DNA of 64,000 nt from assembly GCF_947623445.1 (NCBI RefSeq), contig NC_135247.1, forward strand, positions 18,664,501 through 18,728,500, in the 5' to 3' direction. This document shows, piece by piece, positions 46 to 64,000 of the stretch. The stretch comes from Clavelina lepadiformis. Its lineage: Eukaryota; Chordata; Ascidiacea; Aplousobranchia; Clavelinidae. Numbering within the stretch: position 1 is the stretch's first letter; each line of letters begins with the position of its first letter. Under the pieces are notes generated by a model. It had not been told where the DNA came from. It searched no databases and was given only the letters and a program-made list of their open reading frames with translations. A program made the translations under genes and the position numbers.

Positions 46-2007
46 ATGGAGATCGAGTTTTGTCAAGTTTGTGCAGTAATCGTTTTGCTTTCAACAACTT
101 ACCAAAGTAAACGAGTATTTCATATGTTATTGTATTAGTCAAAGATAATAAAGTTAGTAAAAAATTATATGTTTTTTGAAGCCATTTTTGATTATGCTAC
201 AAATAATTCTTGTTTCAAAGTCTCAGCTCAGTGTCCAAGACGAAACCAAACAAAGGCAGATGCTGTAGGACGACCTTGTCGTAAGCCCTGTCCATCACAA
301 GCTCAGTGCAAAGATGGAAAAATATGTCGCTGTGATCATGAATGTGGAACGTCTTGCATCAATATGAGTAAGTTATAATGTGTTCCTGATAAAGCTGGAA
401 TGTAAAAATTTATGATTTGTGCTTACAGCAAAGTTATGAAAGGCAAAATTATTTTAACATGTACAGTATTTACGGTCAAGGAATTCTTTTATTTTTTCTT
501 TGAAACAATTAAACAAGTATTCGTGCAATGTTATGGAGTTATGTAGTTGAAAAATAAAAACAGAAGTTTACATAATATTTAACATTATTCATAGACAACT
601 TTTGCGGTCTACCATTGGTCATACCAAATATGGCAAGAGTTTGCGTTTATCGAAGACTCTCGAATGGATCACTCGTATTGAAACCGTCGCCACCTTACCA
701 GTATGATGATATGGCTGAGTATGAGTGTGCGCATGGTTACCGTTTAGAAGGATCTCAAAATTTTAACTTATGCCATGGAAGAAAAAGTTGGACTAGATTG
801 GCGGTTTGTGCTCGTAAGTGAATGTCAATAAACATCAAAGATAAAGTCGTTCAAAGCGAGTCATTATGAAGCGATTTATGCTATGTTGCTATAACTAAAC
901 CATTTGCTATTATCTCAAAAATAACAAGATTGTTGCACATAAACTTGTTACTTTATTGTCAGGAAGTTGCCGCAGGTTTGACGAAGAAAAAGTTTTGCAA
1001 AATCTCATGATATGCGGAACAAATTGTGTGACAAGTTCAGAGTGCACGGAAGACATGAGTTGTATGTGTGATGGGTATTGTGGTAGGACTTGCGTGAACC
1101 CAGGTGATATATTTACACATAATAATATCAATTATCTTTATTTTTATGTAACTTTCATTGACTAAGTTTTGTATTTCAAATCTTATTTTTCAAAGATATC
1201 GATTGCGGGGAAGCCCCACCATCCACACACGCTTCAATTAAATATGACGGAGAAGGATTTCAACGAAGAGCTTACTACCGGTGTGACGTCGGATTTTATC
1301 CTCAGTCCGGAGATTTAACGAGGAAATGCACAGGAGGTGGAACCTGGAGTGGAAGATTAATCAACTGCGCTCGTGAGTAATTTGCCAAAGTCATGTTGAA
1401 ATGTTTTCTAGGAACAAATATTATCGATTTTAACGTCACAAACATGGTTTTGGAATTATTCCAATTTGCTAAAACGTTATAGCTACAACTTGTGGTGATC
1501 CATTGCCTTCTATTCGATCGATGGGTGGCGAAATTGTGCAGGATCAGCATGACCCATATTTGGTTGGACACCAAGTGACGTTTCAGTGTTCTCCAGGGCA
1601 ACGGTTTCTAGGAGACAGCGTTCAAACGTGCATGGAAGACGGACAGTGGAGTGGATTAAACGCAATTTGTGATTTGATTGGTGAATGAACCTTTTGCTGA
1701 CTTGGAAAATACTTATAATATGCCTTGTTGGAGTTTTCATCCAATGCCTTAAAAGGAAAGGCGTACATACTGAGACAGAATTATAGCAGAGTAGTTGTAA
1801 TTTGTCGTGGTTTTTATTTAGATGATGAATCAAGATGTCCGCATCCTGGAGTTCCAATAAACGGTAATCTCTTGACAAGGAGCAACTTCACGGTGGGAAC
1901 GATGGTTGAGTTTGAATGTGATGAAGGATACTCGATGATTGGAGATCGACAACAAGAATGTTTTTACTTCCTACAGTGGAGCGATGGTGGTGCTCCGAAA
2001 TGCATAG
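46..2007 (+). CDS. Gene 1 N-terminal exons: signal peptide, WAP, CCP, WAP, CCP, CCP, CCP
   Basis: Exons are 46-106 (signal peptide with a hydrophobic CAVIVLL core), 221-367 (WAP-like), 595-813 (CCP), 963-1103 (WAP-like), 1196-1372 (CCP), 1483-1680 (CCP) and 1822-2007 (CCP). All internal junctions are phase 1. The WAP-like domains have eight cysteines and the late CGxxC motif of whey acidic proteins, but cysteines 5 and 6 are separated by one residue (CRC, CMC) instead of adjacent. CCPs show the four-Cys pattern with Trp before the last Cys. The first CCP has an extra cysteine (codon near 643) where genes 2-4 have Arg. These modules would bind substrate or cofactor, as the three CCPs of factor B do. 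Confidence 0.85.
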
Positions 2008-5000
2008 GTGTCGCAAGGAGCTCATCGTAATAGCAAAAGTGTAAACTGTATCTTTATACATCAGATAAAATTTATAATATTATTAAGTCTCCCAATCTGG
2101 CAAAGAAAGGCGCGCAATATAGTACGTACTAATGGGTGCGTGTTCGAAGTTCAAAAGCTACAGAAAAGTTTCATTTTCTTAACGCATGAAACTGCGCTTT
2201 TTTTCAGACCCTCGATACCCTGCCAGCAATTCAGTTTCTTTACGTCGACTTCAAGGAAATCTGGAAACAACTGAAGATCTTGTCCACAGCCACAGCCTGG
2301 GTCATTCATTATCATCAACATCAACAATATTGCATGAAACAATCTTTGTTATTGATATTTCTAAAGATGTCAGTGATGAAACTCTTAGAGTTTCCCTGAA
2401 GTTTGCTGAGAATCTTGTAATTGAGGTTGGTAAACACTTGCATGTTTTTAAAGAAGGCCTAAATAATTTCTATCTTGTATATAGACCAGCATCAAATTAG
2501 TTGTGCAAACAAATTCATTTTTAAATTTACAGGCAAGCAGAGACAACTACTTGAAATGCGCCATCATTGTTTTTGCTTCAGGATCCAAAGTTGTCCTGAG
2601 GTTTGCTTCAGTTCCTTCACAAGAAGTAATTCAATCGCTGAGAAGTATTTTAGCAGACAGAGGTAAGAGAGAAAGAGAAGTTGAAACAAAAATTGCATTG
2701 CTTATAAAATGAGCTTAAAATAATAAAAAATGTTATCAACTCGTGATTTGGCGCAGAAAAGTTCGTGCAAAATGTTGGTGAATTGAGAAACACTGCGGAG
2801 GGTTTGCGAAAATTACGGGAAGTCTATTTAAGCATCGCACAAAACATTTCGGAAAACATGAGGAATATTTTCTTGTTTATCAATGGTAAAAGGAGTATAT
2901 GTGCGTCATCAACTCAGTTATACCCAAGAATTTAATTACGGATTGTTTTTCATTTTTTAAGGTCAACATTTTCAAGGACTGATTTCCCCAAAAATCGTAA
3001 TGCAAGATTTTATAGATGGATTGTCAAAAAATTTGCCAAACGTACATTTGTGTGGATTTCATCTACAAACTTTTAATTTCATAAATAATATGATGTAATT
3101 TTCAGGAGCGCTATAAAAGTCAACACTTAAACATAAATGTTTCGATATTTCATGTTTTGGATTTCAGGATTTATCTAACTTCTGTTTGGTTTGAGTTTTG
3201 TTCACATTTGACACCAGAATGACGCAATATGTTTTAGATCTACGTAATAGCATTTGGATCAAATGTTCATGAGAGTGCCACCTATGACGAACTCCAATCC
3301 CTAACTTATCCCAGACATTTGCTTTTGGTCAATCCAACTTCCACTGAAGTACCCGATACTTTTAATAGCCAAGGTTAGTTCTAAGTTAGCAGTTCAATTG
3401 TAAAGGTTATTACTCAGTTCTACTGAAATATTTTTAAATTACAAAAGTTCAACATGTTGTTTAAATTTCGAAACAAATTAAAAATCATCATATTAAATTA
3501 AAACATGGACTAATATAATTTTTTTCAAACCAATGTCTACTTTTGTTATAGTCACAATCAATTCAACCATCGCAGTTAAAGTTTAAACTTAGTTGAAAAC
3601 CAATGAAATATGAAATATGATTGGAGCAAGACTAACAAAATGTTTCTACAGACTTTTGTCAATGCGGAACATCTGGAGATATTGGAAATGTGAAGAAAAG
3701 AGCAAGTATTGGCAGAGTTGTAAAAGGAACAAAAGCAAATTTGGCTGCTTGGCCTTGGCAAGTTCTAATAGCCGAAAATCGGGCAAGAATTTCAAACGTA
3801 AGCTTGAATATTTACATATATAGCTTTAACATTAAGCTAAAATTACGAGTTTACCTAAAAGATGTACCGTTTGTAGACATATCGCCGTGTTAGAGGCGGT
3901 GGGTCTTTAATCAACCATCGATGGGTTCTCACAGCTGCTCATATCTTTCATGGCATGGCAAGACCAAGAGATTGGGCGCACAATATCTTGCTTACGTTTG
4001 GTTGGTTGAATCTCATTGAAAGATTGTTTTGTAAAAAACAAAAGCGTTGATTAAGTTTGTTGTGTAACAATTGTTTCAAAGGAATTCGACAGTTACCGGA
4101 AAGCGATCAATCTCAGCTTTCTTCACATGTACAAGTTTTTCGAGCAAAGAAGATTTATGAGCACGAAAACTTTTCCATCAACACATTTGATTACGACATA
4201 GCTTTGGTAATTTTTGTTTAATCAAATAGCATTAGAAGTTTGATGAAACCAGAATATGTTGCAACTGAAAAGTGTTTCAAAACAGGAGATATATCTTGTA
4301 TGTTTGAAATCAACTTTTTTCTGAAAACACTGACGAACAAAATCGATATGTTGCTACAGATTCTTGTAGGCAGAGAATTGAAGCAACTTGGCTTGTACTG
4401 GCAGCAAACTGGAAATGCAGGTTGGGTGAATTATACGTCATTTGTGAGACCAGTGTGCTTGCCATGCATGGATAGAAATTGCGTCAGTGAATATTTGGAG
4501 AGAAATGAAAGGACGTTGTTTGGGAGAAAGATTTCAGAAAGTGATAAATGCAAAACTGAAGGTAGGTCATGTACAATTACAGAAAATATATTTTTTTAAA
4601 TGATTTTGTCCGTGAATTGATGCTTAAACTTGTTTTAGGCGACTGGTTGATCGAAAAAGGAGAACTTGAAAGAAAGTCTGTTCTAACAGTCGTTACAGGT
4701 TTTGGTGAAAAAAGGATTCGTCATACCTCGGATTTTAAATTTAAAGCTTCGAAATTTTTAACCCAAGCACTAATTCGACTTCATAACGATGAAAGGTGAC
4801 TCCAAAGTAGATTTCAGTTCTCAGAAGCTTGATTCGAATGATTGGAATAAATATGAAAAATGAGATGGCTTGTAGAGCTTTTTACAAAAGAAATAAAATT
4901 ATGACTTTAATTATAACTATGACTATGACTACGACTTCGACTGCGACTGTCATTGTCACTGTCACTCTCATTGTCACTGTCACTGTCAATAGGTAAATTA

Positions 5001-8000
5001 TGAAAAAATTTGAAGCTGCTGTGCTCTTAGATATTTTTAAACATAAAAAGGTTTACGAAGTGTTAGATTTATTTCATGAATTTTCAGGTGCAATCGAAGT
5101 ATTGCCCAAATGAGAAAAAAAGGTTTACCCGAAGGAATTACGTTTACTGACCAAATGATTTGTGGAATTGGGGGAAACCCTGGTATTATAACTGATGCAT
5201 GTAAAGGAGACAGCGGCGGACCACTTGTACGAGAGGTGGGCGAAGCTGAAACAGAGATTTGCTGAAGCTCAATTACAGCAAATCTTAAGTTGTTATGAGT
5301 TTTTTATTAAAATTTAAGGAGGATTATCTAAAATAAATGCAAGTTTACATGATATTTATTACGTTTCAATTTTATTTACAGTTCAAAGAGAATGTTATTG
5401 GCAAGGGATGTTGGATGCAAATTGGAATTGTGAGCTGGGGTTGGGGATGTGGATCAACATACACAGAAAACAGCATAAAACACCAATTTCCAGGCTACTA
5501 CACAAGCGTAGCTCTCCTAATGTCCTGGGTGACTGAAATACAACAACAAACAAAATCAGGTTCTGTTCCCATTAGTCGAAAAATTGTAATTTACCAAATA
5601 AAAACAAACGTTTGCAATAATTACTTTAAATATTTACTGAAATTAGTTCATCCTGATTCGTTTTGTCATGTTGATCCTTGCCAAGTGGAGAAAGGAAGAA
5701 CTTGTAAGAAATCTTGTGAGGATGATGCAGATTGTAGAGGAGCACTGAAGAGATGTGTTTGTGATGACGTTTGTGGAATGTCTTGTATTAATCCAAGTAA
5801 CAGTTTGGTTAAAGCAAAATAGTTGTACTGTAGTAGAAAACCTATAATGGGACATTCATTATGTTTTCAAATAATCGAAACTTTTTATTGGCAAATTCTA
5901 AGCAATCTTGGTCCAGTTTTTTACACGTTTTCGGCTTTACAATAACCATTTATTTGTTTCTTAATTAGAAGCTGTTTGTGATGATTTGGATACACTCAGC
6001 AATGGGACAATCGAAGGCAACAGAACTTATGGCAATACAGTTTATTACACTTGCAATGAGGGATTCATTCTCAAAGGAACAAGAACCAGGACATGTAGAT
6101 CCGACAAGAAATGGACCGGAACAGCACCAACTTGCTTGGGTAAGATTGGCTTTGTCGAGATTTACATTCAAGCGCATTTATGTAGTTACTATTCAAGGAA
6201 CTTTCCCAAATTGAACCAAACCTGACAAGGAATATATACCATGTCCATTTATATCGCGATGGATGGTATATAATGTAAAACTAAATATATGAGTTATGTT
6301 TGCATGATATTAACTTCTACTTTAAGTTGTAGAAGCTTCCAAATTCCATTCATTTCTACAACATAATCAAATGCTTTATCAATTTGTTCAATAAAACATC
6401 TATATACGCTTGCATTAGAAAGTTAGTTTATTTTGTTACGATTTTTAAATGTAAATACCGTGCATTGTTTTACAAAAGATTAATTTACGAAATTATTGTT
6501 TTGAATTTCATTGTTTAACGTTTTAAGTCTTTTATTGTATTTACTGTAAAAACACATAAAAACATATGCTTGGTTAATTTTCATGACAAGAATGTGTTCA
6601 ACTAACATTTTATTAACGGTTCTAACAAAGCAATAGCCAGTTGCTGCACATAATAACTAAGTCAGGGGCTTCTCTTGTTCTTGATGAACCGATAAGTAAG
6701 ATAGTATATACGTGATTTATACTTGTAGGTTACTTACCTTTCTGTTAAAACAATTTCTTTATTGTAAACAGAGATAGAATGCGTCGTACCTAGAGCTCCA
6801 AGCTTCGGTTCTGTTGAACCTCCAAGCTTTAGCAGAGTGGCATTGGATGAGATCATAACATACTCTTGTGGTCGAAGATATCGACTGGTTGGTACCTCTA
6901 GGGCAACTTGCAAAGAAGATCGAACATTCGCTTCCTCACCACCACGTTGCCAAGGTAGGTATTGTTAAGATAAAATGTGTAATGATGGGATGATAAAAGA
7001 AATAAGACTTTTAAAATGTCACACTTGTATCAATCGCATCCAATTAAACAATTTTCCAGAAATAACCTGTCCACATCGAACCACACCTGCACACGCCAGA
7101 CCAAGTTCATTCAAGTCGCGATGGCTGGTAGATGAAGTTCTAAGTTACACTTGCGCTCTTCGGTATGACTTTAGGGGAAATCCTTCATCAACCTGTCTAG
7201 TTAGTGGAAGTTGGTCAAATACTTTACCATATTGCCACAGTGAGCAATTTATTGTATTTTTGTCATCTTATTATTATTCTATTGTCGCATTTGTACTAAG
7301 ACGTAAAGTTACTCAGATATAGAGAAGTTTCATCTCATTGTAAACACATTCTCAAACTATACAAAGAAAAAGTGACTATCAAGAATTGTCCATTTCTACC
7401 TTCTAATATAGCACTTCATTGTAACACAATTAATTCTGCAAAAATAAATCTTTACAGAATTACCGTTTCACAATCACTGTGAGTTATTACCAACACTCTG
7501 AAATAGAACGTAACACTCATAATGTGCACGTTGATATTTCAGTACGACGATGTGTACACCGAGACGTTCCAGAACATTCTACAGCTAACCCTAACAAAAG
7601 TCAATGGGTTTATGGCGACCGAGTCACGTACACTTGTGATCGTGGCTACGAGTTGTCAGGATCGGCTGAATCACGTTGCACGTCAAGTGGTCGTTGGTCT
7701 GATCCTCCACCTACTTGCACAAGTAAGTCGGTAGCAAGATCATGTTGAAAAAGTTTTATGAATTGCTTTTAAACGATGCTGAAACGTATTTAATTTAGTG
7801 CTGTGTGAACAACATGTTGAAGCTTTAACTTATTAGAATTTTATTGTGTTTACTTTACAGTAAGATCATGCGAGCATCCCACACCACCACGTAACGTCGA
7901 CATAATAAGACCAGCAAACAAAATGTCTTGGGTGTATGAAGATACTATAACATATGGATGTAGTAGAGGTTATCGCTTAAATGGAGCCAGAACTTTGTCA

Positions 8001-10922
8001 TGCACTGAAGATGGGACGTGGTCGCACCCTGTACCGACTTGCCAACGTAATACTCAACTTTACTGCAGTCCTTACATACAGTATACCTTGCTAATCAAGT
8101 CACCTACTTTTCTAGGGCTCTACGATTTATGTTACGGCTTATCCGCAAAATAAATTGCGTTTTTGCAGAAATCACCTGTGAGCGCTCTGACCCCGACTTC
8201 GGCGAGTCAATCCCCAGAAAGGAAAGATATATTTTCGATGAGAAAATTACATATTCATGCAACGACGGATTTATTTTGGAGGGTGCAATTAGGTCAATTT
8301 GTCAAACATCTGGAAGTTGGAATAACGATCCTCCGAACTGCTATTTGCCTGGTAAATGCTCGCTATCATTTAATCCTCGTTAAAAGCATTCCAGTAAAAC
8401 TCAAACAAGATTGTCCACCCGATAATGGTAATAAACGATGGATTGATAATAATTGCTAATTTTCATAAACGTCGTTACTAACGTGCCTTGTAATGCGATT
8501 ATGACGCATTTAGTTTATAATAATCAATGGTATTACAATATCTGCAAAATTAGGAGATTTTTAAAATTAAATTTCGAAATGAAAACGCAACAATGGTAAG
8601 AAGGGGTTAAAACAATGGTGTTAGTTTTCTGTTAAAACAATTTCATTATTGTAAACAGAGTTAGAATGCGTCGTACCCAGAGCTCCAAGCTTCGGTTCTG
8701 TTGAACCTCCAAGGTATAGCAGAGTGGCATTGGATAACATCATAACATACTCTTGTGGTCGAAAGTATCGACTGGTCGGTAACTCTAGGGCAACTTGCAA
8801 AGAAGACCGAACGTTCACTTCCCCACCACCACGTTGCGACGGTGGGTATTTTGGAAATGAAATATGTATTGAAGGGATGATGAATGAACATTTAAAAGGA
8901 AAAAGATGTTTAAAATGTTGTGCTTTTATCAATCACATCCAATTAAACACTTTTCCAGAAATAACCTGTCCACGTCGAACCACACCTGCACACGCTACAC
9001 CAAGCTCATACAAGTCGCGATGGGTGGTAGATGAAGTTCTAAATTACACTTGCGATGTTGGATATGAATTGAGGGGAAATCCCTCATCAACCTGTCTAGT
9101 TAGCGGAGGCTGGTCAAATGAATTACCCAATTGCCGCAGTGAGCAATTTATTGCATTTTTGTCATCTTGTTATTATTCTATTGTCACATTTGTACTAAGA
9201 CGTAAAGTTACTACTTAGATATAGAGAAGATTCATCTCATTGTAAACACATTGTCACACTATTTGGAGAAAAAGTGATTATTAAGAATTACCATTTCTAC
9301 CTTTTAATATAGCACAGCATTTTAACAGAATTAAATATGCAGAAATACAACTTTACAGAATTACCGTTTCACAATTACTGTGATTTATTACCAACACTCT
9401 GGAATAGCACGTAAAACTCATAATATGCACGTTGTTGTTTCAGTACAACGATGTGTACACCGAGATTCTCCAGAACATTCTACTACTAACCCTAACAAAA
9501 GTCAATGGGTTTATGGCGACCGAGTCACTTACACATGTGATCGTGGCTACGAGTTGTCAGGATCGGCTGAATCACGCTGCACGTCAAGTGGTCGTTGGTC
9601 TGATCCTCCACCTACTTGCACAAGTGGTAACTAAAGTTTAACAACGGATTAAAAAGTTGAAATTGGCAAAAAAATCTTATGAAACGTTTTCCTACCCTGC
9701 TGTATTTCGACTAATACATTTCCTTATTACATTAAGTTGACGAATGCCAACCACGTCCATGCAGGAACGGAGGAACTTGTTTGAATAGAATCGATGCTTA
9801 CAAATGTTATTGTCTGCGAGGGTACGAAGGAGGTAATTGTGAAATAAGTAAGTTAAAAGTGTTGTACTTATGTATATCGTTCTTATGGTTAATACATGCA
9901 AATCGAACGTTTACACGTGTAGGCGTTTTCTGTTAAAACAATTTCATTATTGTAAACAGAGATAGAATGCGTCGTACCCAGGACTCCAAGCTTCGGTTCT
10001 GTTGAACCTCCAAGCTTTAGCAGAGTGGCATTGGATAACATCATAACATACTCTTGTGGTCGAAAGTATCGATTGGTTGGTAACTCTAGGGCAACTTGCG
10101 AAGAAGATCGAACGTTCACTTCTCCACCACCACGTTGCGACGGTGGATATTTTGGAAATGAAATATGTATTGAAGGGATGATGAATGAACATATAAAAGG
10201 AAAAAGATATTTAAAATGTCATACTTGTATCAATCATATCCAATTAAACACTTTTCCAGAAATAACCTGTCCACGTCGAACCACACCTGCACACGCCAGA
10301 CCGAGTTCATTCAAGTCACGATGGGTGGTAGATGATGTTCTAAGTTACACTTGCGCTCTTCGGTACGACTTTAGGGGAAATCCCTCATCAACCTGTCTAG
10401 TTAGTGGAAGTTGGTCAAATACTTTACCATATTGCCACAGTGAGCAATTTATTGTATTTTTGTCATCTTATTACCATTCCATTGTCACATTTGTACTAAG
10501 ACGTAAAGTTACTCAGATATAGAGAAGTTTCATCTCATTGTAAACACATCCTCAAACTATACACAGAAAAAGTGACTATTAAGAATTGTCCATTTCTACC
10601 TTCTAATATAGCACTTCATTGTAACAGAATTAATTCTGCAGAAATACAGCTTTACAGAATTACCGTTTCACAATTACTGTGAGTTATTACCAACACTCTG
10701 AAAGAGCACGTAAGACTCATAATATGCACGTTGTTGTTTCAGTACGACGATGTGTACACCGACATGTTCCAGAACATTCTACAGCTAACCCTAATAAAAG
10801 TCAATGGGTTTATGGCGACCGAGTCACTTACACTTGTGATCGTGGCTACGAGTTGTCAGGATCGGCTGAATCACGCTGCACGTCAAGTGGTCGTTGGTCT
10901 GATCCTCCACCTACTTGCACAA
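46..10922 (+). CDS. Gene 1: factor B/C2-like mosaic protease with long CCP tail (multi-exon)
   Basis: This is the first of four tandem paralogues. Domain order is signal peptide, WAP, CCP, WAP, three CCPs, vWA, S1 protease, WAP, CCP, then eleven CCPs with one EGF. CCPs followed by vWA and S1 are diagnostic of the complement factor B/C2 family, the catalytic subunit of the C3 convertase. The extra WAP domains and everything after the protease are not part of vertebrate factor B. About 33 exons can be placed by GT-AG borders and conserved phase (detailed in the block entries). The start is the ATG at 46 because it opens a hydrophobic leader shared by all copies. The last recognisable exon ends at 10922 with a good donor, but no homologous downstream exon follows, so the 3' end is lost or unknown. 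Confidence is high for the modules and lower for the 3' end. Confidence 0.85.
2208..3373 (+). CDS. Gene 1 von Willebrand factor A domain (five exons)
   Basis: Exons are 2208-2425, 2533-2662, 2757-2885, 2962-3041 and 3238-3373. They encode the vWA beta strands in order: [41 protein letters not shown] and IYVIAFG. The first exon starts with a linker containing LRRLQ, where factor B is cut by factor D at a basic site; this is only a positional analogy. The MIDAS looks altered: the first motif reads D-x-S-x-D instead of D-x-S-x-S, and the later Asp of factor B (TDG) is Asn (ING). The donor of the first exon is ambiguous: GTTGGT at 2426 keeps frame, and GTAATT at 2417 would also keep it three codons shorter. 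Confidence 0.8.
3652..5559 (+). CDS. Gene 1 S1 serine protease domain (seven exons)
   Basis: Exons are 3652-3797, 3877-4000, 4082-4206, 4360-4561, 4639-4795, 5088-5235 and 5382-5559. The triad is complete: His in LTAAH, Asp in FDYDIAL, Ser in GDSGGPL. The residue six before the Ser is Asp (DACKGDSGG), the S1-pocket residue of trypsin-like enzymes. The domain starts with GR|VVKG, a conventional zymogen cleavage site. The usual disulfide flanking the catalytic His (chymotrypsin Cys42-Cys58) is absent on both sides. The second exon must end at a weak GTTGGT donor (4001), because the GTAAAA at 4031 would create a TGA codon at the join. The domain ends with the GWGCG and PGYYTSVA blocks. Confidence 0.85.
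5647..6139 (+). CDS. Gene 1 post-protease WAP (5647-5796) and CCP (5969-6139)
   Basis: The third WAP-like domain has the [11 protein letters not shown] core, followed by a CCP ending TGTAPTC. In gene 1 the 87-bp intron before it has no in-frame stop: the stop TAA present in genes 2 and 3 is TAC at 5592-5594. The acceptor used by the paralogues (ACTAG) has become ACTGA, and the next usable AG (5645-5646) keeps the frame. Gene 1 can therefore reach this domain either by splicing or by reading straight through the intron. Confidence 0.75.
6140..6771 (+). other. Long conserved intron (gene 1)
   Basis: This 632-bp intron lies between the post-protease CCP and the CCP cassette. Equivalent introns with clear similarity occur at 20569-21200 and 46551-47132. 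No coding signal is seen in it. It is the natural place to look for an alternative promoter or 3' end, but none is obvious. Confidence 0.5.
6772..7722 (+). CDS. Gene 1 CCP cassette a-b-c, first copy
   Basis: Three CCP exons: 6772-6954 (type a, begins [13 protein letters not shown]), 7060-7239 (type b, [10 protein letters not shown]) and 7543-7722 (type c, [11 protein letters not shown]). Each is one exon in phase 1-1 with four cysteines and a late Trp, except type a, which has Phe (DRTFAS) at the usual Trp position. The a-b-c set is repeated twice more downstream in this gene. Confidence 0.85.
7861..8351 (+). CDS. Gene 1 CCP exons d (7861-8046) and e (8169-8351)
   Basis: Two further single-exon CCPs, type d ([22 protein letters not shown]) and type e ([21 protein letters not shown]). 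The same pair follows cassette c in genes 2 and 3, so it is an ancestral part of the tail. Confidence 0.85.
8395..8470 (+). pseudogene. Relic of a TSP1 exon end
   Basis: The sequence from about 8400, starting near GATTGTCCACCCGATAATGG, matches the last bases and following intron of the TSP1 exon at 23970-24134 in gene 2. The preceding lectin and TSP1 sequence is absent. The same junction exists in gene 3 at about 49305. It marks the border of a module block present in gene 2 but missing in genes 1 and 3. Confidence 0.6.
8659..9623 (+). CDS. Gene 1 CCP cassette a-b-c, second copy
   Basis: Exons are 8659-8841 (a), 8959-9138 (b) and 9444-9623 (c), with strongly similar introns to the first and third copies. 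The donor after exon c is GTGGTA rather than the usual GTAAGT because one base differs. Confidence 0.8.
9737..9847 (+). CDS. Gene 1 EGF-like domain exon
   Basis: A single phase 1-1 exon encodes a six-cysteine EGF module ([14 protein letters not shown], then [12 protein letters not shown]). The aromatic-Gly spacing before the last Cys is typical. It resembles the EGF exon of genes 2B and 3B (35823-35936, 56272-56385) more than the EGFs of gene 2. Confidence 0.8.
9960..10922 (+). CDS. Gene 1 CCP cassette a-b-c, third copy
   Basis: Exons are 9960-10142 (a), 10260-10439 (b) and 10743-10922 (c). Exon b is closest to the first copy and exon a to the second copy by eye, so the repeats have probably exchanged sequence. 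Similarity to the other copies stops about 50 bp after 10922, where the normal d and e exons are missing. Confidence 0.8.
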
Positions 10923-10984
10923 GTAAGTTGGGAGCAAGATCATGTTGAAACAGTTTTATGAATTGCTTTTAAACGGTGTTGAAC

Positions 10985-11399
10985 AATACAATCTCATTTT
11001 CGCAACCATTCTCCCAAACAAGACTTCAAACTACTAATATTCCTCGGAACAGTTTTACGAAAACTACGGAATTGGTAAAATTGCGAAATTTATAAAATTT
11101 TGATGTTTGAAACCCTGGATGACGTCACTCGGGATTTTACCCTTTTGAAAATAGAAGTGGCTTGAGTAATTCAATGCGCTGCACTTGCTCAAATAACGCG
11201 AATGCTGCAGACAAAGCGGGTTACTGTAGAATAGATAATGTGCTCATACAAAAGGAACAGTTTGCTTGACAAAATAAAATAATTGTATATCCGGGCAATA
11301 TTTGAACTAAATTCACTGATTCCGTGTTTGAAACAAGCGATAAATATATTTGAGTCTTGAAATTTTACGTTGCAATATTTTCTTGTTTACCAGCAACAG
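10985..11399. other. Unassigned sequence after gene 1
   Basis: This is non-repetitive AT-rich sequence, not similar to the downstream introns of the other copies. I see no coding module in it. Confidence 0.4.
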
Positions 11400-11503
11400 G
11401 CTGCCAAGGTGATCGTTATTCTGGTTTCAATTTCTACGAGAGCGTTAGTATAGAAATCCATAGTTCAAGGTTTTTGCTTGAAAAATGTGCAGTTTGTCGG
11501 TAA
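11400..11503 (+). CDS. Candidate terminal exon of gene 1
   Basis: A pyrimidine-rich tract and CAG end at 11399. Entered in phase 1 after the exon ending at 10922, the following 104 bases read about 33 codons (GCQGDRYSGFNFYESV and more) and then TAA at 11501-11503. No known domain is recognised and no paralogous exon exists in this window. Length and splice signal alone are weak evidence. Confidence 0.25.
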
Positions 11504-11865
11504 AAACATGAGTTTTGCGAATTGCTCTATAACAATAACAAATGTGAATACAAACAACAATTAAGTACAGCTCAAGCCAACGAAAAGGCAACCACAAAAC
11601 TTAAAACCAACTTAAGATGTAATTTACGTATCTATGCCAGATAAAGTCAAACGTTGAAACAACCATATTTTCATAAAACCAACTCTTATTTTCAATAAAA
11701 CTGGGTTGTGAAGTAAATTTTAAGGCACAACGTTTTAACTGATCTGTTTTTCTCTAATACGTTTCGCATCAAGTCCCATTTTGTTGGAAATTTACAGTAT
11801 ATCAAACTAATTAATCCGATTGTGAAATTTCAGTTAAGTCATATATATTATTTATTATTTATTAA

Positions 11866-12268
11866 CGAATGAAACTGCGCTTTTTTCAAATCTTCAATAC
11901 CTTGTCAGCAAACTTCTTTTTGGTTTGAATTTTGTTCACATTTGACACCAGAAATGACGCAATATGTGTTAGATTTACGTAATAGCATATATACATAACT
12001 ATACATAGCTCCAATTTGCTTGCGTAAGATTGGCTGCGTCGAGATTTACATTTAAGCGCATTTATGTAGTTATCTTTCAAGGAACTTTCCCAAAGTATTT
12101 TTGGTGAAAACGTCGGAATAATTCAAAATCAGTAGTAAGAGTCTTCACTAAAATGTTTTGGCGATTTCGTCAACTTTCTTCAACACTAATGCACAAACTT
12201 TAATTATGACGATGAATGGGACAGATGTGACAAGTCTTGTTCTTGTGCGTTTTACTTTGTTTCTGGTT
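11866..12268 (+). pseudogene. Collapsed relic of an additional array gene
   Basis: Four short fragments lie in the same order as in an intact gene: about 11869-11908 matches the start of the first vWA exon (GAAACTGCGC, TCAATACC), about 11908-11990 the intron and start of the last vWA exon, about 12008-12095 the end of the post-protease CCP exon and its intron, and about 12190-12268 the end of the fibronectin II exon (TATGACGATGAATGGGACAG). The intervening kilobases are gone. This is best explained by serial deletions in a former full copy between genes 1 and 2. Confidence 0.65.
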
Positions 12269-12394
12269 AAGCATTAACATTTGAAGATCTCACCGCTTTC
12301 ACTCACTTTGGCGACATTATTTTTAAATGCATGTTTTTCCATTCCATTAAGTGATTTCTCCCAAGTTAAACAAGAAGAATCGACTCAGAAAATT

Positions 12395-12803
12395 ATGGAT
12401 ATCAGGTTTTTTCAAGCACTTGTCGTGCTCGTTGTATCTTCAGCGATTAATCAAAGTGAAACAGCATTAAAATTGTTGTATTTGTAACAGAGTAAAGATA
12501 GTTACAAACGAATGGTTGTTAAACAATGTATCAAGTGTGGTAGGAAGAAATAGTTTTATTACGATTGCAAACATAAGCTGGAATAACTGACAAAGTTTAA
12601 TGTTGTGTTTCACAGGTATAAAGCTCTCGTGCAGTAATGTTGTTGTTCCTGTTCGGACTATTGTGGGCTCGATCAAGTTTCCTTATGTGGCTGGTGACAG
12701 CATCACGTATTCATGCGAAGCTGGGTATAATATGATGGGACCAGCCACGATAGTTTGTCAGAATACTGGAAGGTGGAGCAGCAACCCACCAAGCTGCGTC
12801 TAA
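12395..12803 (+). CDS. Small secreted single-CCP protein (two exons)
   Basis: Exon 1 (12395-12455) encodes a 20-residue signal peptide with an ALVVLVVSSA core and ends in phase 1 at a GTGAAA donor. Exon 2 (12616-12803) follows a CACAG acceptor and encodes one complete CCP (four cysteines, GRWSSNPPSC) and a stop. The join gives 82 residues with no gap. The CCP is the same type as the last CCP of the FN2/CCP ORFs at 36473-36907 and 56922-57356, but here the fibronectin II module is missing (a relic of it lies at about 12190-12268). A polyadenylation signal sits at 12908. It could be a soluble decoy or regulator, but that is inference. Confidence 0.6.
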
Positions 12804-14400: not shown

Positions 14401-14404
14401 AAAC

Positions 14405-37797: not shown

Positions 37798-38006
37798 TTT
37801 GGTAATTTGGTAATTTGGTAATTTGGTAATTTGGTAATTTGGTAATTTGGTAATTTGGTAATTTGGTAATTTGGTAATTTGGTAATTTGGTAATTTGGTA
37901 ATTTGGTAATTTGGTAATTTGGTAATTTGGTAATTTGGTAATTTGGTAATTTGGTAATTTGGTAATTTGGTAATTTGGTAATTTGGTAATTTGGTAATTT
38001 GGTAAT
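37798..38006. repeat. 8-bp minisatellite (TTTGGTAA)n, about 26 units
   Basis: Near-perfect tandem units fill 209 bp. The corresponding intergenic site after gene 1 (13679-13718) has only two or three units, so the array expanded locally. Its minus strand gives a meaningless KLPNYQIT repeat ORF. Confidence 0.95.
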
Positions 38007-39838: not shown

Positions 39839-39841
39839 TTA

Positions 39842-53269: not shown

Positions 53270-53307
53270 TTGGCTGAGGTCACAAAGTGTCCTGCTTTCG
53301 ATAAACA
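53270..53307 (+). pseudogene. Stub of the next CCP exon
   Basis: The first 38 bases of the CCP corresponding to 30699 in gene 2 remain (CTGAGGTCACAA, then CCTGCTTTCGATAAAC), with its acceptor changed from TTTTAG to TTTGG. Homology then stops abruptly. The rest of the gene 3 end is deleted. Confidence 0.75.
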
Positions 53308-54904: not shown

Positions 54905-56934
54905 TATTGCTTTCGACCGGACAAGAAACATGCGTGCGCAATTTATCACTTCTTGAAGAGGGTAGAAATTGCAGAAAGTTTTGCGACACAAACTCTGACT
55001 GCAGAAGTTCTTCGAAACAATGCCTGTGCGATGATGTTTGTGGAAAGTCTTGCTATAACCCAAGTAAGACATAATACGCAATTAAGACGATACCATTCCT
55101 TTTACTGGCACTCTTCGTTAAGCTGCCTTGGCACAAAACGAAGTGTTTTTGCTTCGAAATGAAGCAACCTAGAAACACGACTTCGTGGTGACAACTGGCA
55201 AACAATATACTTTGCAAAACAATATACTCCAACAAACGAATACTTGGAAACGTCATCGTCTTTTATGTGCATGAACGCAATACTCGTCTGCCATTAGATT
55301 TGTTGCAAATATCATCATACCTTAGATGTTACGATCAAATATGGTTTGTTTAAGACGCCCCATGCGAAGCTCTCGAACCTGTCGAAAACGCCGTAATAGA
55401 AGGAGAAAGAGCCTATGGAAATGAGGTCATCTACACATGCAATGATGGATATGTTTTAGTCGGCAGCAGTAAGAGAACTTGCCGATCCGACAAGAAATGG
55501 ACGGGTTCAGCACCGTACTGCAAAGGTAAATGAAACCACTGAGCAAGTAAGAATTTATTTTATCTGCAGTTCCACAGTAGTTGCAGAGTAAATCAATAAC
55601 TTTAATTTCAATTCTCTGCATCGGTTATGTGTCATCAGCTGTTTGTTCGACTCCCATGCGCACGTCAAGCTCATATCCAGAAACAAGCAAAGACGTTTAT
55701 GAAACTGGAGATGTTGTCACTTACAGCTTCCGCTTTGGTAAGTGTGTTTGCTGTAAAGTTTCAAAACGCAGCCTTCAAGTGATAAATTGTAGTGGCGTAA
55801 GCCCTGCGTCTTTGACTTGAAGTCTAATGCATAGCCCATAGTAAATGTAGATTGTCAGAGTTAATGCAAAAAGGCTTCGGTGAAATATTTACGAATTGTG
55901 GACACACACACATGCACACACACCTTTCTCACATGACGTTAAAACAGGTTTTATTTTATCCGGAAATCCCAACATAACCTGCACATCAGATGGTTGGACG
56001 GAACCAAGGTACCTTTGCTCCAAAGTAAATTGTAAATCGCCCAGCGAAATAAACAATGGTTATTACGGAAGGGGACGACTTTTTCTTCGGCAGCAGAGTT
56101 TTTATCATTTCATTTTTATCATTTTTATCAGTTTTTATCGTTTTTATCATTTTTATCATTTGGTATGTTGTCATTGTACAGTATTTATGCCCCTTCGACA
56201 AAAACAAAATTGAAAAAAAAACTGCATGAACAATCAAGCATTATAAAAATATTTTCATTCCTTTTTTATAGGTGACGAATGTAGTATTCCGGATTCTTAT
56301 CAAAACGGAGGAACTTGTATCAACAGGATAGATGATTACACTTGTTTTTGCGGGCACGGATACGAAGGAAAGGATTGCTCAATACGTAAGCAACATTCAA
56401 ATCATGCATAAGAAGTACTGATATGTAACATCATAGTTTTCATAAGGAATCTATGTAGCTTGAATAAATGCATTCTCAGGCCTTGATTGCTTGGTGCCTC
56501 CTGCGCCAACCGATGGATCCGTTTCACCGTCATCGGGCAACAGAGTGTTATTGGATGGGACAATTACTTACTCATGCGATCCAGGTTACTTCATGAAAAA
56601 TCAGCTACATGGGACGTTGAAAGCAACATGTCTGAGGAGCGGGAATTGGAATCGACCCACCCCAGTCTGTGAAGGTAGCCTACTTATAAGAAACCTGTGT
56701 TGTCAAAAGGCTTTCATATTCTGCTGTAATACTTAAACCTGTGCAGAGAGTCGATGTATTGTTCCTCAAACACCGGCTCACGGAACCTTGTCAAGATCTG
56801 CTGGGGAAAAAGTCCCCGCAGACAGAAGTGTTTCATTTACATGTGATGAAGGCTATACAATGATCGGACAACCAACCATATATTGCCGACGCTCCGGAAC
56901 TTGGTCAAATGAGTTTCCTGAGTGTGTGGATTAG
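54905..56934 (+). CDS. Gene 3B: WAP-CCP-EGF-CCP segment without its own signal exon
   Basis: Exons are WAP 54905-55063 (NCRKFC, CLCDDVCGKSC, eight-Cys pattern intact), CCP 55355-55525, split CCP 55639-55737 plus 55948 to about 56040, EGF 56272-56385, CCP 56480-56674 and CCP 56747-56934 ending TAG. It is paralogous to gene 2B but lacks the leader exon and the whole MAM domain. Its first exon has a TTTTGCAG acceptor in phase 1, compatible with the last intact CCP of gene 3 (53181), so it may now be the 3' part of gene 3. EGF Cys is Tyr at 56298-56300. Confidence 0.55.
56098..56165. repeat. (TTTTTATCA)n AT-rich repeat at MAM deletion site
   Basis: Imperfect TTTTTATCA units occupy the place where gene 2B continues into the CCP end and MAM exons. 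The repeat sits at the deletion breakpoint. Confidence 0.75.
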
Positions 56935-57356
56935 TAAAAGTATTACTTGGCATATCATTGCTGCATGTAAGTTGCAAATTGTTCTTTGCTTTTTTGACAA
57001 ACACTTTGAAACGTTTAGAACGACAATGCACTGACTCCGGGGATTGTCATTTTCCTTTCGACTACAAAGGAAGAACCTATAAGTCTTGTATTGAATCTAA
57101 AATTGGTCTCACTGACTGGTGTTCCTTCACTGCAGAGTATGATGATGAATGGGACAGATGTGACAAGTCTTGTCCTTGTGCGTTTTACTTTGTTGTTGTT
57201 CCTGCTCGCACTATTGTGGGGTCGATCAGATTTACTTATGTGGCTGGTGACAGCATCACGTATTCATGCGAAGCTGGATATAATATGATGGGACCAGCCA
57301 CGATAGTTTGTCAGAATACTGGAAAGTGGAGCAGCAACCCACCAAGCTGCGTATGA
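56922..57356 (+). CDS. Fibronectin type II plus CCP ORF, second copy
   Basis: Same arrangement as 36473-36907, including the lack of an ATG and the overlap with the preceding CCP stop. FN2: CHFPFDYKG, LTDWC, EWDRCDKSC. CCP: SITYSCEAGYNM, KWSSNPPSC. The frame has stayed open in both copies, which argues for coding function. Poly(A) signal at 57517-57522. Confidence 0.62.
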   Translation: MCGLVKVLLGISLLHVSCKLFFAFLTNTLKRLERQCTDSGDCHFPFDYKGRTYKSCIESKIGLTDWCSFTAEYDDEWDRCDKSCPCAFYFVVVPARTIVGSIRFTYVAGDSITYSCEAGYNMMGPATIVCQNTGKWSSNPPSCV

Positions 57357-58953: not shown

Positions 58954-60907
58954 ATGGAGATCAAGTTTTGTCAAGTTTGTGCAGTAATCGTTTTGCTTTC
59001 AACAACTTACCAAAGTAAACGAGTATTTCATATGGTATTATATTAGTCAAACATATTAAAATTAGTAAAAAACTATCTGTTTGTGGAAGCCATTTTTGAT
59101 TGTGCTACTTTTGATTCTTGTTTCAAAGTCTCAGCTCAGTGTCCAAGAAGAAACCAAACAAAGGCAGATGCTGTAGGACGACCTTGTCGTAAGCCCTGTC
59201 CATCACAAGCTCAGTGTAAAGATGGAAAAATATGTCGCTGTGATCATGAATGTGGAATGTCTTGCATCAATATGAGTGAGTTATAATGTGTTCCTGATAA
59301 AGCTGGAATGTAAAAGTGAATGAAATTGTGCCTACAGTAAAGTCATAAAAACAAAATTATTTTAACATGTAGAGCATGTACGGTCAGCGAAATTTTAACT
59401 TTTTCCCTTGAAACAATTTAACAAGTTTTCGTGCAATGTTATGGAGTTATGTAGTTGAAAAATAAAAACAAAAGTTGACATAATATTTAACACTATTTAT
59501 AGATAACTTATGCGGTCTACCATCGGTGACACCAAATATGGCAAGAGTTCGCGTTTATCGAAGACACTCCAACGGATCACTCGTATTGAAACCGTCGCCA
59601 CCTTACCAGTATGATGACATGGCTGAGTATGAGTGTGCGCCTGGTTACCGTTTAGAAGGATCTCAAAATTTTAACTTATGCCATGGAAGAAAAAGTTGGA
59701 CTAGATTGGCGGTTTGTGCTCGTAAGTGAATGTCAATGAACATCAAAGATAAAGTCGTTCAAAACGCGTCACAATGAAGCGTTTTATGATATGTTGCTGT
59801 AACTAAACCATTTGCTATTATCTCCAATACAACAAAGTCGTTGCACATAAACTTGTTACTTTGATTTCAGGAAGTTGCCGCAAGTTTGACGAAGAAAAAG
59901 TTTTGCGAAATCTCATGATATGCGGAACAAATTGTGTGACAAGTTCAGAGTGCACGGAAGACATGAGTTGTGTGTGTGATGGGTATTGTGGTAGGACTTG
60001 TGTGAACCCAGGTGATATATTTACACGGAATAATATCAATCATCTTTATTTTTATGTAACTCTCATTGACTAAGTGTTATATTTCAAATCTTATTTTTCA
60101 AAGATATCGATTGCGGGGAAGCCCCACCATCCACACACGCTTCAATCAAATATGACGGGGAAGGATTTCAACGGAGAGCTTACTACCGGTGTGACGTCGG
60201 ATTTTATCCTCAGTCCGGAGATTTAACGAGGAAATGCACAGGAGGAGGAACCTGGAGTGGAAGATTGATCAACTGCGCTCGTGAGTAATTTTCCAAGGTC
60301 ATGTTGAAAAATCAACCTTAGATTTTAAACGTTTTCTAGGAACAAAAATGATCGATTTGATTTGAATGCTAAAATGTTATAGCTACAACTTGTGGTGATC
60401 CATTGCCTTCTATTCGATCGATGGGTGGCGACATTGTGCAGTATCAGCATGGCCCATATTTGGTTGGACACCAAGTGACGTTTCAGTGTTCTCCAGGACA
60501 AAGGTTTCTAGGAGACAGCGTTCAAACGTGCATGGAAGACGGACAGTGGAGTGGATTAAACGCAATTTGTGATTTGATTGGTGAATGAACCTTTTGTGGA
60601 CTTGGAAAATATTTAAACTATGCTTTGTTGGAGTTTTAATCGAATGCCTTAAAATGAAAGTAGTATTTAGTGAGACTGAATTTTAGCAGCGTAGTTGTAA
60701 TTTGTCGTGGTTTTTATTTAGATGATGAATCAAGATGTCCGCATCCTGGAGTTCCAATAAACGGTAATCTCTTGACAAGGAGCAACTTCACGGTGGGAAC
60801 GATGATTGAGTTTGAATGTGATGAAGGATACTCGATGATTGGAGATCGACAACAAGAATGTTTTTACTTCCTACAGTGGAGCGATGGTGGTGCTCCGAAA
60901 TGCATAG
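58954..60907 (+). CDS. Gene 4 N-terminal exons: signal peptide, WAP, CCP, WAP, CCP, CCP, CCP
   Basis: Exons are 58954-59014, 59129-59275, 59503-59721, 59871-60011, 60104-60280, 60383-60580 and 60722-60907. The donor of the first WAP exon is GTGAGT. Cysteine patterns are complete. Confidence 0.87.
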
Positions 60908-63900
60908 GTGTCGTATTGAGCTCATCGTAATAGCAAAAGTGTAAACTGTATCTTTATACATCAGATAAAGTTTAGAATATAATTAAGTCTCTCAATCTGG
61001 CAAAGAAAGGTGCGCAATATAGTACGTACTAATGGGTGCGTGTTCAAAGTTCAAAAGCTACAGAAACGTTTCATTTTCTTAACGTATGAAACTGCGTTTT
61101 TTTCAGACCCTCGATACCCTGCCAGCAATTCAGCTCCTTTACGTCGACTTCAAGGAAATCTGGAAACAACTGAAGATCTTGTCCACAGCCACAGCCTGGG
61201 TCATTCATTATTATCAACATCAACAATATTGCATGAAACAATCTTTGTTATTGATATTTCTGAAGATGTCAGTGATGAAACTCTTAGAGTTTCCCTGAAT
61301 TTTGCTGAGAATCTTGTAATTGAGGTTGGTAAACATTTACATGTTTTTAAAGTAGGCCTACATAATTGCTATCTTGTATATAGACCAGCATCAAAGTGTT
61401 TGTGAAAACAAATTGATTTTTAAATTTACAGGCAAGCAGAGACAACTACTTGAAATGCGCCATCATTGTTTTTGCTTCAGGATCTAAAGTTGTCCTGAGG
61501 TTTGCTTCAGTTCCTACGCAAGAAGTAATTCAATCGCTGAGAACTATTTTAGCAGACAGAGGTAAAGAAAAAGGTTAAAGGAAAAAGAGAAGTTGAAACA
61601 AAAATTAATGTTTATAAAATGAGCTTTAAATAATAAAAAATGTTATCAACTCGTGTTTTGGCGCAGAAAAGTTCGTGTAAAATGTTGGTGAGCTGAGAAA
61701 CACTGCGGAGGGGTTTGCGAAAATTACGGGAAGTCTATTCAAGGATCGCCCAAAACATTTCGGAAAACATGAAGAATATTTTCTTGTTTATCAATGGTAA
61801 AAGGAGTATATGTGCGTCATCAACTCAGTTATACCCAAGATTTTAGTTACAGATTATTTTTAATTTTTTAAGGTCAACATTTTCCAGGACTGATTTCCCC
61901 AAAAATCGTGATGCAAGATTTTATAGATGGATTGTCAAAAAATTTGCTAAACGTACATTTGTATGGATTTCATCTACAAACTTTTAATTTAATAAATAAT
62001 ATGTTTAAATTTTCGCGAGCGCTTTTATAGTCAACACTTAAACATAAATGTTTCGATATTTTATGTTTTGGATTTATCTAACTTATTTTTGGTTTGAATT
62101 TTGTTCACATTTTACACCAGGAATGACGCAATATGTTTTAGATTTACGTAATAGCATTTGGATCAAATGTTCATGAGAGTGCCACCTATGACGAACTCCA
62201 ATCCCTAACTTATCCCAGACACTTACTTTTGGTCAATCCAACTTCCATTGAAGTACCCGATACTTTAAAGGGCCAAGGTTAGTTCTAATTTAGCAGTTCA
62301 ATTGTAAAGGTTATTACTCAGTTCTACTGAAATATTTTTAAACGAGAAAAGTTCAACATGTGGTTAAAATTTGAAACAAATTTGAAAATCATCATATTAA
62401 ATTAAAACATGAACTAATATAAATGTTTTCAAACCAATGTCTACTTTTGCTAAAATCAAAATCAATTCAATTTTCGCAGTAAAATTTCAAAATTAGCTAA
62501 AATCCAAAGAACTACGATTTAAACAAGACTAACAAAATGCTTCTATAGACTTTTGTCAATGCGGAATATCTGGAGATGTTGGAAATGTGAAGAAAAGAGC
62601 AAGTATTGGCAGAGTTGTAAAAGGAACAGAAGCAAATTTGGCAGCTTGGCCTTGGCAAGTTCTAATAGCCGAAAATCGGGCAAGAGTTTCATACGTGAGC
62701 TTGATTATTTACATATATACAAACTCTCAGCTAAAACTTCGAGTTTGCCTAAAAGATGTTCCGTTTGTAGACATATCGCCGTGTGAGAGGCGGTGGGTCT
62801 TTAATCAACCATCGATGGGTTCTCGCAGCTGCTCATGTCTTTCATGGCATGGCAAGACCAAGAGATTGGGCGCACAATATCTTGCTTACGTTTGGTTGGT
62901 TGAATTTCATTGAAAGATTGTTTTGTAAAACAACAAAGCGTTGATTAAACTTGTTGTGTAACAATTGTTTGAAAGGAATTCGACAGTTACCGGAAAACGA
63001 TCAATCTCAGCTTTCTTCACATGTACAAGTTTTTCGAGCAGAGAAGATTTATGAGCACGAAAACTTTTCCATCAACACATTTGATTACGACATAGCTTTA
63101 GTAATTTTTGTTTAATCAAATAGCATTAGAAGTTTGATGAAACCAGAATATGTTGCAACTGAAAAGTGTTTCAAAACAAGAGCTATATCTTGAATGTTTG
63201 AAATCAACTTTTTTCTGAAAACACTGACGAACAAAATCGATATGTTGCTACAGATTCTTGTAGGCAGAGAATTGAAGCAACTTGGCTTGTACTGGCACGA
63301 AACTGGAATTGCAGGTTGGGTGAATTATACGTCATATGTGAGACCAGTGTGCTTGCCATGCATGGATGGAAATTGCGTCAGTGAATATTTGGAGAGAAAT
63401 GAAAGGACGTTGTTTGGGAGAAAGATTTCAGGAAGTGATAAATGCAAAACTGAAGGTAGGTCATGTACAATTGCAGAAAATATATTTTTTTAAATAATTT
63501 TGTCCATAAATTGAAGCTTAAACTTGTTTTAGGCGACTGGTTGATCGAAAAAGGAGAACTTGAAAGAAAATCTGTTTTAACAGTCGTTACTGGTTTTGGT
63601 GAAACAAGGATTCGTAATCCTTCCGATTTTGATTTTAAAGTTTCGAAATTTTTAAACCAAGCACTAATTCGACTTCATAACGATGAAAGGTAACTCCACA
63701 GTAGATTTCATTTTTCAGAAGCTTGATCCGAATGATTGGAACAAATATGAAAAATGAGATCTGCGACTGTCATTTTCACTGTCACTGTTACTGTCACTGG
63801 AAAAAATATAAAAAAATTTGAAGTTGCTGTGCTCTTAGAGCTTTTTAAACATGAAACGGTTTACGAAGTGTTAAATTTATTTCATAATTTTTCAGGTGCA

Positions 63901-64000
63901 ATCGAAGTATTGCCCAAATGAGAAAACAAGGTTTACCGGAAGGAATTACGTTTACTGACCAAATGATTTGTGGAGTTGGGGGAAACCCTGATATTATAAC
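58954..64000 (+). CDS. Gene 4: factor B/C2-like protease, 3' truncated by window
   Basis: Fourth paralogue, with 18 exons visible from the signal peptide to the middle of the catalytic-Ser exon. Exon lengths equal the other genes except for one extra base in the third vWA exon, which breaks the frame. Thus either gene 4 is a pseudogene, this exon is skipped with frame loss, or the base is a sequencing error. The rest is well preserved, so inactivation would be recent. Confidence 0.8.
61107..62277 (+). CDS. Gene 4 von Willebrand factor A exons, with frameshift
   Basis: Exons are 61107-61324, 61432-61561, 61667-61796 (130 bases, against 129 elsewhere), 61873-61952 and 62142-62277. The insertion is an extra G in GGAGGGGTTTGCG at about 61708-61715. 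It shifts the frame and leads to a stop at the end of the exon. Confidence 0.8.
62549..64000 (+). CDS. Gene 4 S1 protease exons (incomplete)
   Basis: Exons are 62549-62694, 62771-62894, 62976-63100, 63254-63455, 63533-63689 and 63896 to the window end. The His motif reads LAAAH instead of LTAAH. The Asp motif FDYDIAL is present. The window ends before the catalytic Ser. Confidence 0.83.

Follow-up and report, generated by a model that had tools for sequence, protein, structure and literature searches.

The window considered here, a stretch of 64,000 nucleotides from the genome of the ascidian Clavelina lepadiformis (C8:18664501-18728500), is best read from its sequence as a cluster of complement-factor-B-like protease genes in which exchangeable tails follow the protease in one predicted chain. 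It contains three factor B-like genes with open cores, A, B and C, and a broken copy, D, and the tails are predicted to differ in module content from copy to copy while the core stays nearly constant. We consider it fairly probable that these genes belong to a rapidly duplicating ascidian family of secreted proteases derived from factor B, with protease and tail in a single polypeptide that would find its own targets. The genome sequence searched in this analysis comprised 209 Mb in 95 contigs; the available text of the Clavelina genome paper gives 210.1 Mb, a HiFi coverage of 117-fold and the poly(A) RNA-seq run ERR10908613 (PMC10884593). The public names of the matching database models, which are cited below by P number, are scattered between 'SVEP1-like', 'C3/C5 convertase', 'CR1-like', 'lev-9-like' and 'uncharacterized'.

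Each gene follows the same core order, i.e., a leader exon, WAP-like, CCP, WAP-like, CCP, CCP and CCP modules, a vWA domain encoded by five exons and an S1 protease domain encoded by seven exons. The signal-peptide exon is conserved, with its ATG at 46 (A), 14405 (B), 40520 (C) and 58954 (D), and its product begins with MEI[KE]. In the cores of A, B and C the exon phases agree and none of the core exons contains a stop codon, and Pfam places Sushi, VWA and Trypsin above the cut-off in the order CCP, vWA, S1; the WAP-like module of gene C scores below the cut-off (14.8 vs. 20.8) and that of the paralogue P0062 above it. The catalytic triad is intact in the models of all three genes (AAH, FDYDIAL, GDSGG), and an Arg-containing linker is present; in factor B and C2 the factor D cleavage site lies after the last CCP. 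Compared with the PDB, a profile of 12 related proteins matched CR1, CR2 and factor H first, via the tail CCPs, and then factor B and C2 over CCP-vWA-S1; a search of NCBIfam gave nothing useful. The core shares 39% identity with Ciona Bf (Q5H874), and Ciona Bf and the tail-less Clavelina Bf carry WAP-like N-terminal modules as well. Since aligned segments of the copies are 87.5-98.5% identical in DNA, the arrangement is not due to chance. For A, B and C, open frames and a ratio of nonsynonymous to synonymous substitution rates (dN/dS) below 1 led us to reject a chance or pseudogene array as an account of the cores, whereas it was accepted for the protease of D. Copy D has a one-base insertion and a stop in one vWA exon, and its other 17 core exons in the window are open, the last one being truncated at the window end.

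For gene B, the database model P0014 agrees with our spliced model in 2041 of 2100 aligned columns and contains both lectins, two TSP1 and two EGF modules; its record probably comes from another assembly than the window. Following the first CCPs, the order is lectin-X-TSP1-TSP1-lectin-EGF-EGF-CCP, and the module counts rise if an internal duplication is included. This duplication of 3.4 kb (21962-25408 vs. 25404-28846, 98.5% identical) truncates the first copy of the lectin 2 exon. Module X, of approximately 110 residues between lectin 1 and TSP1, is encoded by the end of 22882-23466 together with 23653-23808 and is repeated within 26324-27250. It matched nothing in Pfam and its best PDB match is weak (E=0.14), and its identity to a counterpart at the same position in Styela is 29%. 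The tail of gene A consists of the WAP-like module, CCPs and one EGF, without lectin or TSP1, and Pfam detects no TSP1 in P0015 (1844 residues) at E 0.001; this model is identical to the core of gene A in 964 of 965 residues and reaches the last CCP and the stop at 12803. For gene C, P0001 matches our spliced model in 1016 of 1017 residues through the first tail module, the sole difference lying at the leader (annotated exon 2 begins 6 bases earlier). Tail exons placed by similarity to B give TSP1-lectin-EGF-EGF-CCP, with one distal CCP broken, and the predicted link of C's protease to its lectin comes from the exon map of this analysis. The lectin 2 motif differs between copies, being REPNNAGNEDC..WND (EPN/WND) in C and EPS/WND in B, so that lectin 2 of C carries both EPN and WND of a predicted mannose-type C-type lectin; we take EPN to mark mannose-type and QPD galactose-type lectins. 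Two other models were read by eye: P0020 has MAM and a QPD lectin in addition, and P0025 has FN2 and one more lectin-like module, which is absent from its Pfam listing. A sequence-only reading of the window had described a tandem array of factor B-like proteases with lectin, TSP1, EGF and CCP tails; array and tails stand, and the description does not extend to every copy, as A is devoid of lectin and TSP1 and D is broken. Its proposal of a single chain that has CCP-vWA-S1 and, behind it, lectin and TSP1 modules in the tail is supported by the predicted models P0014 (B), P0020 and P0022.

If the last protease exon of B or C is read on, it hits a TAA (20023 and 46005, respectively) with AATAAA adjacent, while A has TAC at this position. 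These stops are intronic, as the last exon base is 19988 or 45970 and the next exon begins at 20070 or 46052. A phase-1 donor, CAG|GTTCTG, lies 32 bases upstream of the stop codon. The acceptor, also of phase 1, follows 81 nt past the donor (87 in A) and opens a WAP-like exon. The splices of B and C were made before the database models were seen and that of A afterward; P0015 (A), the B-like P0014 and P0001 (C) all splice through the joint, and P0001 does so with the donor and acceptor of our own model. From the GDSGG motif to the chain end, P0001, P0015 and P0014 have 453, 937 and 1169 residues, compared to 64-75 in tail-less models. Moreover, in B and C the stretch from the acceptor to the first WAP-like cysteine holds no ATG, and the only in-frame ATG of the exon lies past most of the module. 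Trans-spliced operons occur in ascidians; such an operon was rejected here as neither ATG nor signal peptide is found between acceptor and WAP-like module in B and C. Separate core and tail genes were likewise rejected on the basis of the junction, the paralogues and a deletion derivative described below.

The same arrangement extends beyond the window. A query of protease end plus WAP-like exon found 11 sites at 18.63-18.91 Mb, in each of which the WAP-like exon adjoins the protease end. Because four of the 11 junctions repeat others approximately 79.4 kb away, we count seven distinct ones (A to D, U1, V1 and V2); of the 3-kb pairs compared, three are identical and one has 1 difference in 3204 bases. 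The donor CAG|GTTCTG is present in all seven, with a phase-compatible acceptor 81 or 87 nt on, always a multiple of three. Four of them (B, C, D and V2) have the TAA in the junction intron, V1 has a later in-frame TAA, and A and U1 have none; AATAAA is found in all except D, and TAA and AATAAA occur together in B, C and V2. Within residues 610-1075 of P0014, which span the protease and the first modules of the tail, identity to the other array copies is 91-95%. In the deletion derivative, at 18.80 Mb, the alignment to gene C breaks off at 41864 and resumes at 45905, approximately 4.0 kb of CCP, vWA and S1 being gone; its model P0008 ('lev-9-like') joins the core's leader to the tail, a natural indication of a single transcription unit that begins with this leader and includes the tail exons. 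Outside the array, four of the 12 protease-end matches have an adjacent WAP-like match (17.02, 17.04, 17.30, and 17.80 Mb). Three of these four diverged pairs were read, and their phase-1 donors (GAAG|GTAATA, GAAG|GTAAGA, and ATG|GTAAGT) are stronger than the array donor; P0061 and P0062 splice the first two and run into CCPs and a second vWA-S1 pair.

The metal ion-dependent adhesion site (MIDAS) of the vWA domain, recognized by DxSxS, a threonine and the aspartate of TDG, is degenerate in the window copies, which read DIS[EK]D, LRNT, and ING. In an alignment of 18 vWA domains, DxSxS and TDG are kept in Clavelina P0002 and in two Ciona and two Styela factor Bs, and both are missing from all 12 vWA domains of ten tail-bearing models (P0001, P0014, P0015, P0020, P0022, P0025, P0061 and P0062 with two vWA each, P0063, and P0068). 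Tail-bearing here means further modules after a protease plus a vWA, and in Styela P0063 the vWA belongs to a second, terminal protease. The site is kept in five of six complete tail-less models (P0002, P0003, P0004, P0005, P0006, and P0009), a count that leaves aside P0007 and P0078, which have the canonical motif and end in or just past the protease motif; P0071 has no vWA. In the text available from two sources, known C2 and factor B proteins keep the MIDAS residues and their activation is Mg2+-dependent (PMC4714745, PMC3351276). Known factor Bs dock on C3b by means of the MIDAS, and with this site degenerate, convertase formation by the tail-bearing proteases is doubtful. The earlier suggestion that one chain merges recognition with convertase formation thus finds no backing in any tail-bearing model examined.

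Searches with the tail found 49 proteins, of which seven are listed with a trypsin domain (P0001, P0014, P0015, P0020, P0022, P0025, P0060), all from Clavelina and six in this family. A protease search of long proteins (52 found) added P0061, P0062, P0068 and Styela clava proteins. Styela P0071 contains CCP, WAP-like, CCP and protease, followed by CCP, MAM, EGF-like, CCP, CTLD, X, TSP1, CTLD and EGF-like modules (Sushi, Trypsin, MAM, lectin and TSP1 by Pfam; WAP-like, EGF-like and X by eye), and by blastp its tail is collinear with Clavelina P0013 and P0014 at 26-31% identity. Chains in which a lectin tail follows the protease are thus present as predicted models in two ascidian species. The Styela locus (LOC120345027; P0071/P0072) shares the order protease and then lectin-X-TSP1-lectin with the Clavelina array; unlike the array, P0071 is devoid of vWA, and its protease sits on a separate long branch. 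Clavelina P0061 and P0062 (LOC143468237, LOC143468357) share the protease-intron-WAP-CCP junction, and their tail differs by the second vWA-S1 pair. These two models, at 17.02 and 17.30 Mb of C8, have two vWA-S1 pairs per chain, and the second protease of P0062 has lost its His (Q) and Ser (G). In P0068 (LOC143455431, on a 28.79-Mb contig) a factor B-like core without canonical MIDAS is followed by a long TSP1 run (seven TSP_1 stretches by Pfam), possibly a factor B and properdin in one chain. Clavelina P0073 has WAP-like, CCP and protease, then CCP and vWD/mucin-type modules.

Set beside known complement proteins, the array copies depart from factor B and C2 in adding a long modular tail after the protease and in their degenerate MIDAS. 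The available text of two sources agrees with the sequence-only reading that factor B and C2 end with the protease: C2s and BFs are all CCP1-7-VWA-SP in one (PMC11312191), and invertebrate C2/FB characterized by 2016 had the classic architecture with particularities at the N-terminus in the other (PMC4714745). With MASPs and collectins the likeness is functional, as lectin recognition is coupled to a complement-type protease; the array copies differ in having lectin and protease in one chain, with the recognition modules after the protease. CUB is absent from the Pfam matches of the array chains, so that the MASP layout CUB-EGF-CUB-CCP-CCP-S1 is not found in them. Properdin, a separate protein, has TSP1 modules in common with the array tails and P0068; its layout, a chain of TSP1 repeats, is not that of P0014 with two TSP1 or of C with one TSP1 exon. 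Horseshoe crab factor C also combines recognition and protease in one chain, with a C-terminal protease and without vWA, and offers a comparison of function. In a literature search covering titles and the beginnings of abstracts, outside subscription journals, we found among the matches listed no description of a factor B-like chain with a lectin or TSP1 tail after the protease; as far as found, the gene models are public and their architecture is apparently not discussed.

Several findings weigh against this interpretation. The array junction donor is weak, at the 74th percentile of the GT sites of the window and second lowest among the 20 donors of gene C, and with a matrix built in this analysis A's junction acceptor reaches the 47th percentile. 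As the junction intron holds both TAA and AATAAA in B, C and V2, the chain may end there; the models that join core and tail are database predictions, and among those matched to C none extends to TSP1 or lectin. Eight of the 12 protease-end matches outside the array have no adjacent WAP-like match. Because the tail-bearing proteases do not fall into one supported clade in a tree of 23 protease domains, a single origin is not shown for them, and in a single-sequence PDB search plasma kallikrein ranks first and factor B is absent among the best 60 of 434 matches. Estimates of dN/dS among A, B and C are 0.36-0.47 for the core and 0.64-0.71 for the WAP-like and six CCP exons of the tail, which suggests weaker constraint on the tails than on the cores. 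Regarding the metal site, the tail-less P0009 lacks it as well, and an aspartate at the MIDAS serine might still hold metal.

The weak junction donor would suit genes with two products, in which intron retention or intronic polyadenylation gives a short, factor B-like form ending at 20023 or 46005 and splicing gives the long form. Such a switch would fit the TAA that B, C, D and V2 have at the same position, the later one in V1 and the AATAAA in six of seven copies, and also the donors of the three diverged paralogues read, which unlike that of the array are consensus-like. However, A and U1, without a stop, would read into the tail, D has no AATAAA, and no short array form is found among 12 database proteins, in which members inside clusters are not visible. 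We rate this as a minority possibility, and it is compatible with the self-targeting chain. It is very improbable, on the other hand, that annotation wrongly merged two adjacent genes and that core and tail never share a transcript. In B, C and V2 the TAA and AATAAA that follow the protease could be read in this way, and a protease-less tail gene with its own leader exists elsewhere as a model (P0013), but the gap measures only 81 or 87 nt, B and C offer no ATG before the first WAP-like cysteine, the models of A to C, P0061 and P0062 all join core and tail, the 18.80-Mb derivative uses the core's leader, and in Styela P0071 protease and tail form one model. That transcripts always end at 20023 and 46005 and that the tail has its own leader, the outcome under which the sequence-only reading would fall, is contradicted by the predicted gene models of A, B and C, by the paralogues and by the deletion derivative, although a short form beside the long one is possible. 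The hepatopancreas-like tissue that it had named as a source of transcripts does not fit an ascidian.

A fused convertase, with a core that has kept C3b binding and C3 convertase formation and a tail that serves only to aim it, would explain the intact triads and the contiguous match of the family profile to solved factor B and C2 over CCP-vWA-S1. We consider it unlikely, as the MIDAS is degenerate in all ten tail-bearing models with vWA and Mg2+-dependent binding is, in the available text of the literature cited above, a hallmark of known factor Bs. The genes might also serve outside defense, encoding proteases of the extracellular matrix, the tunic, gametes or allorecognition in which complement modules are put to another use. 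TSP1, EGF, MAM, FN2 and CCP are generally common in matrix and adhesion proteins, and C3 is not demonstrated, the anaphylatoxin search of the genome having matched nowhere, controls included, and being uninformative for this reason. Against such a role speak the homology of the core to factor B/C2 and the tandem expansion with changing lectin motifs, which is generally typical of immune families, and we regard it as rather improbable.

The coordinates of the features are given in the table. A gene finder run at stricter settings merged the whole window into one gene and was not used for gene ends.

Table. Features of the window, in window positions.
Feature	Position	Strand	Remarks
Signal-peptide exons	A 46-106, B 14405-14465, C 40520-40580, D 58954-59014	+	
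Exon 2 start (database models)	221 A / 14580 B / 40695 C / 59129 D	+	6 bases upstream of first placement
Gene A	46..12803	+	Signal peptide, WAP-like/CCP, vWA, S1, WAP-like, CCPs, EGF, CCPs; stop after last CCP; P0015
vWA exons of A	2208..3373	+	MIDAS degenerate (DISKD ... ING)
S1 exons of A	3652..5559	+	Triad present
Junction intron of A	5560..5646	+	87 nt; retention gives no in-frame stop; spliced in P0015
Gene B	14405..31367	+	Spliced model 2272 aa with one copy of internal duplication; P0014 has 2067 aa
vWA exons of B	16575..17744	+	MIDAS degenerate (DISED ... ING)
S1 exons of B	18016..19988	+	Triad present
Junction intron of B	19989..20069	+	81 nt, phase 1; TAA (ends 20023) and AATAAA inside
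First tail exon of B, WAP-like	20070..20225	+	
Six tail CCP exons of B	20398..22789	+	
C-type lectin 1 and module X of B	22882..23808	+	Repeated 26324-27250
Two TSP1 exons of B	23970..24548	+	Repeated 27412-27991
C-type lectin 2 of B	28661..29086	+	EPS/WND
Two EGF exons of B	29234..29530	+	
Distal CCP exons of B	29803..31367	+	Stop after TTCQDPN, an end common to paralogue P0013; P0014 ends earlier
Second module run behind B	33673..36907	+	WAP-like, CCP, MAM, EGF, CCP, FN2, CCP
Gene C	40520..53181	+	Core and tail exons; isoform P0001 terminates in alternative exon 48713-48805, upstream of TSP1 and lectin
vWA exons of C	42714..43884	+	MIDAS degenerate (DISED ... ING)
S1 exons of C	44156..45970	+	Triad present
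Junction intron of C	45971..46051	+	81 nt; TAA (ends 46005) and AATAAA inside; spliced in P0001
First tail exon of C, WAP-like	46052..46207	+	
TSP1 exon of C	49555..49722	+	By similarity to B
C-type lectin 2 of C	50394..50819	+	EPN/WND; by similarity to B
Distal CCP exon of C	52288..52478	+	One-base deletion vs. B; out of frame unless skipped
Second module run of C	54905..57356	+	
Copy D	58954..64000	+	Window covers core only; vWA exon 61667-61796 has one-base insertion and stop

The second module runs, behind the stop of B at 31367 and in C, may each be a separate gene. Perfect tandem repeats occur in an intron of B (6-bp unit, 16.8 copies, 19289-19389) and between B and C (8-bp unit, 26 copies, 37797-38006), and a 192-aa open frame without the cysteine-rich modules of the array lies between B and C at 38865-39443. 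At the scale of the array, a block of approximately 79.4 kb that holds four gene copies is present as two tandem units (C8:18649208 vs. 18728681, 18669879 vs. 18749352, 18684308 vs. 18763781, and 18710284 vs. 18789701), and the window ends inside the second unit. Four 3-kb samples of the block differ at 0, 0, 0 and 1 positions, and it represents either a very recent duplication or an assembly repeat.

If protease and tail indeed form one self-targeting polypeptide, the chain would no longer dock on C3b through Mg2+, and the tail would carry the protease to its target by EPN/WND or QPD/WND lectins, depending on the copy, beside TSP1 and CCP. The zymogen would probably be cleaved at R|VVKG (R|VLGG in Ciona), as the motif suggests, and the catalytic domain, remaining tied to the tail, would focus cleavage on the bound surface. 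Functionally, this would resemble an MBL-MASP complex made of one chain, with a near-constant effector and variable recognition tails that may arise by the exchange of phase-1 exons. Taking this further, we tentatively envisage an ascidian immune repertoire, encoded in the germline, in which loss of the MIDAS would have released a near-constant factor B-derived protease from C3b and shuffling through phase-1 exons would have combined it with varied lectin, TSP1, CCP, MAM, FN2 and EGF tails into a one-molecule lectin pathway with copy-specific targets; the stop-containing intron might in addition switch between a short and a long form. Work on complement treats lectins as recognition molecules, MASP as the initiating protease, properdin as the stabilizer and factor B as the convertase protease, each being a separate part. 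The genes described here allow tests of whether a factor B-type protease can function when it does not dock on C3b, and of whether complement effectors in invertebrate chordates are diversified through an exchange of recognition modules.

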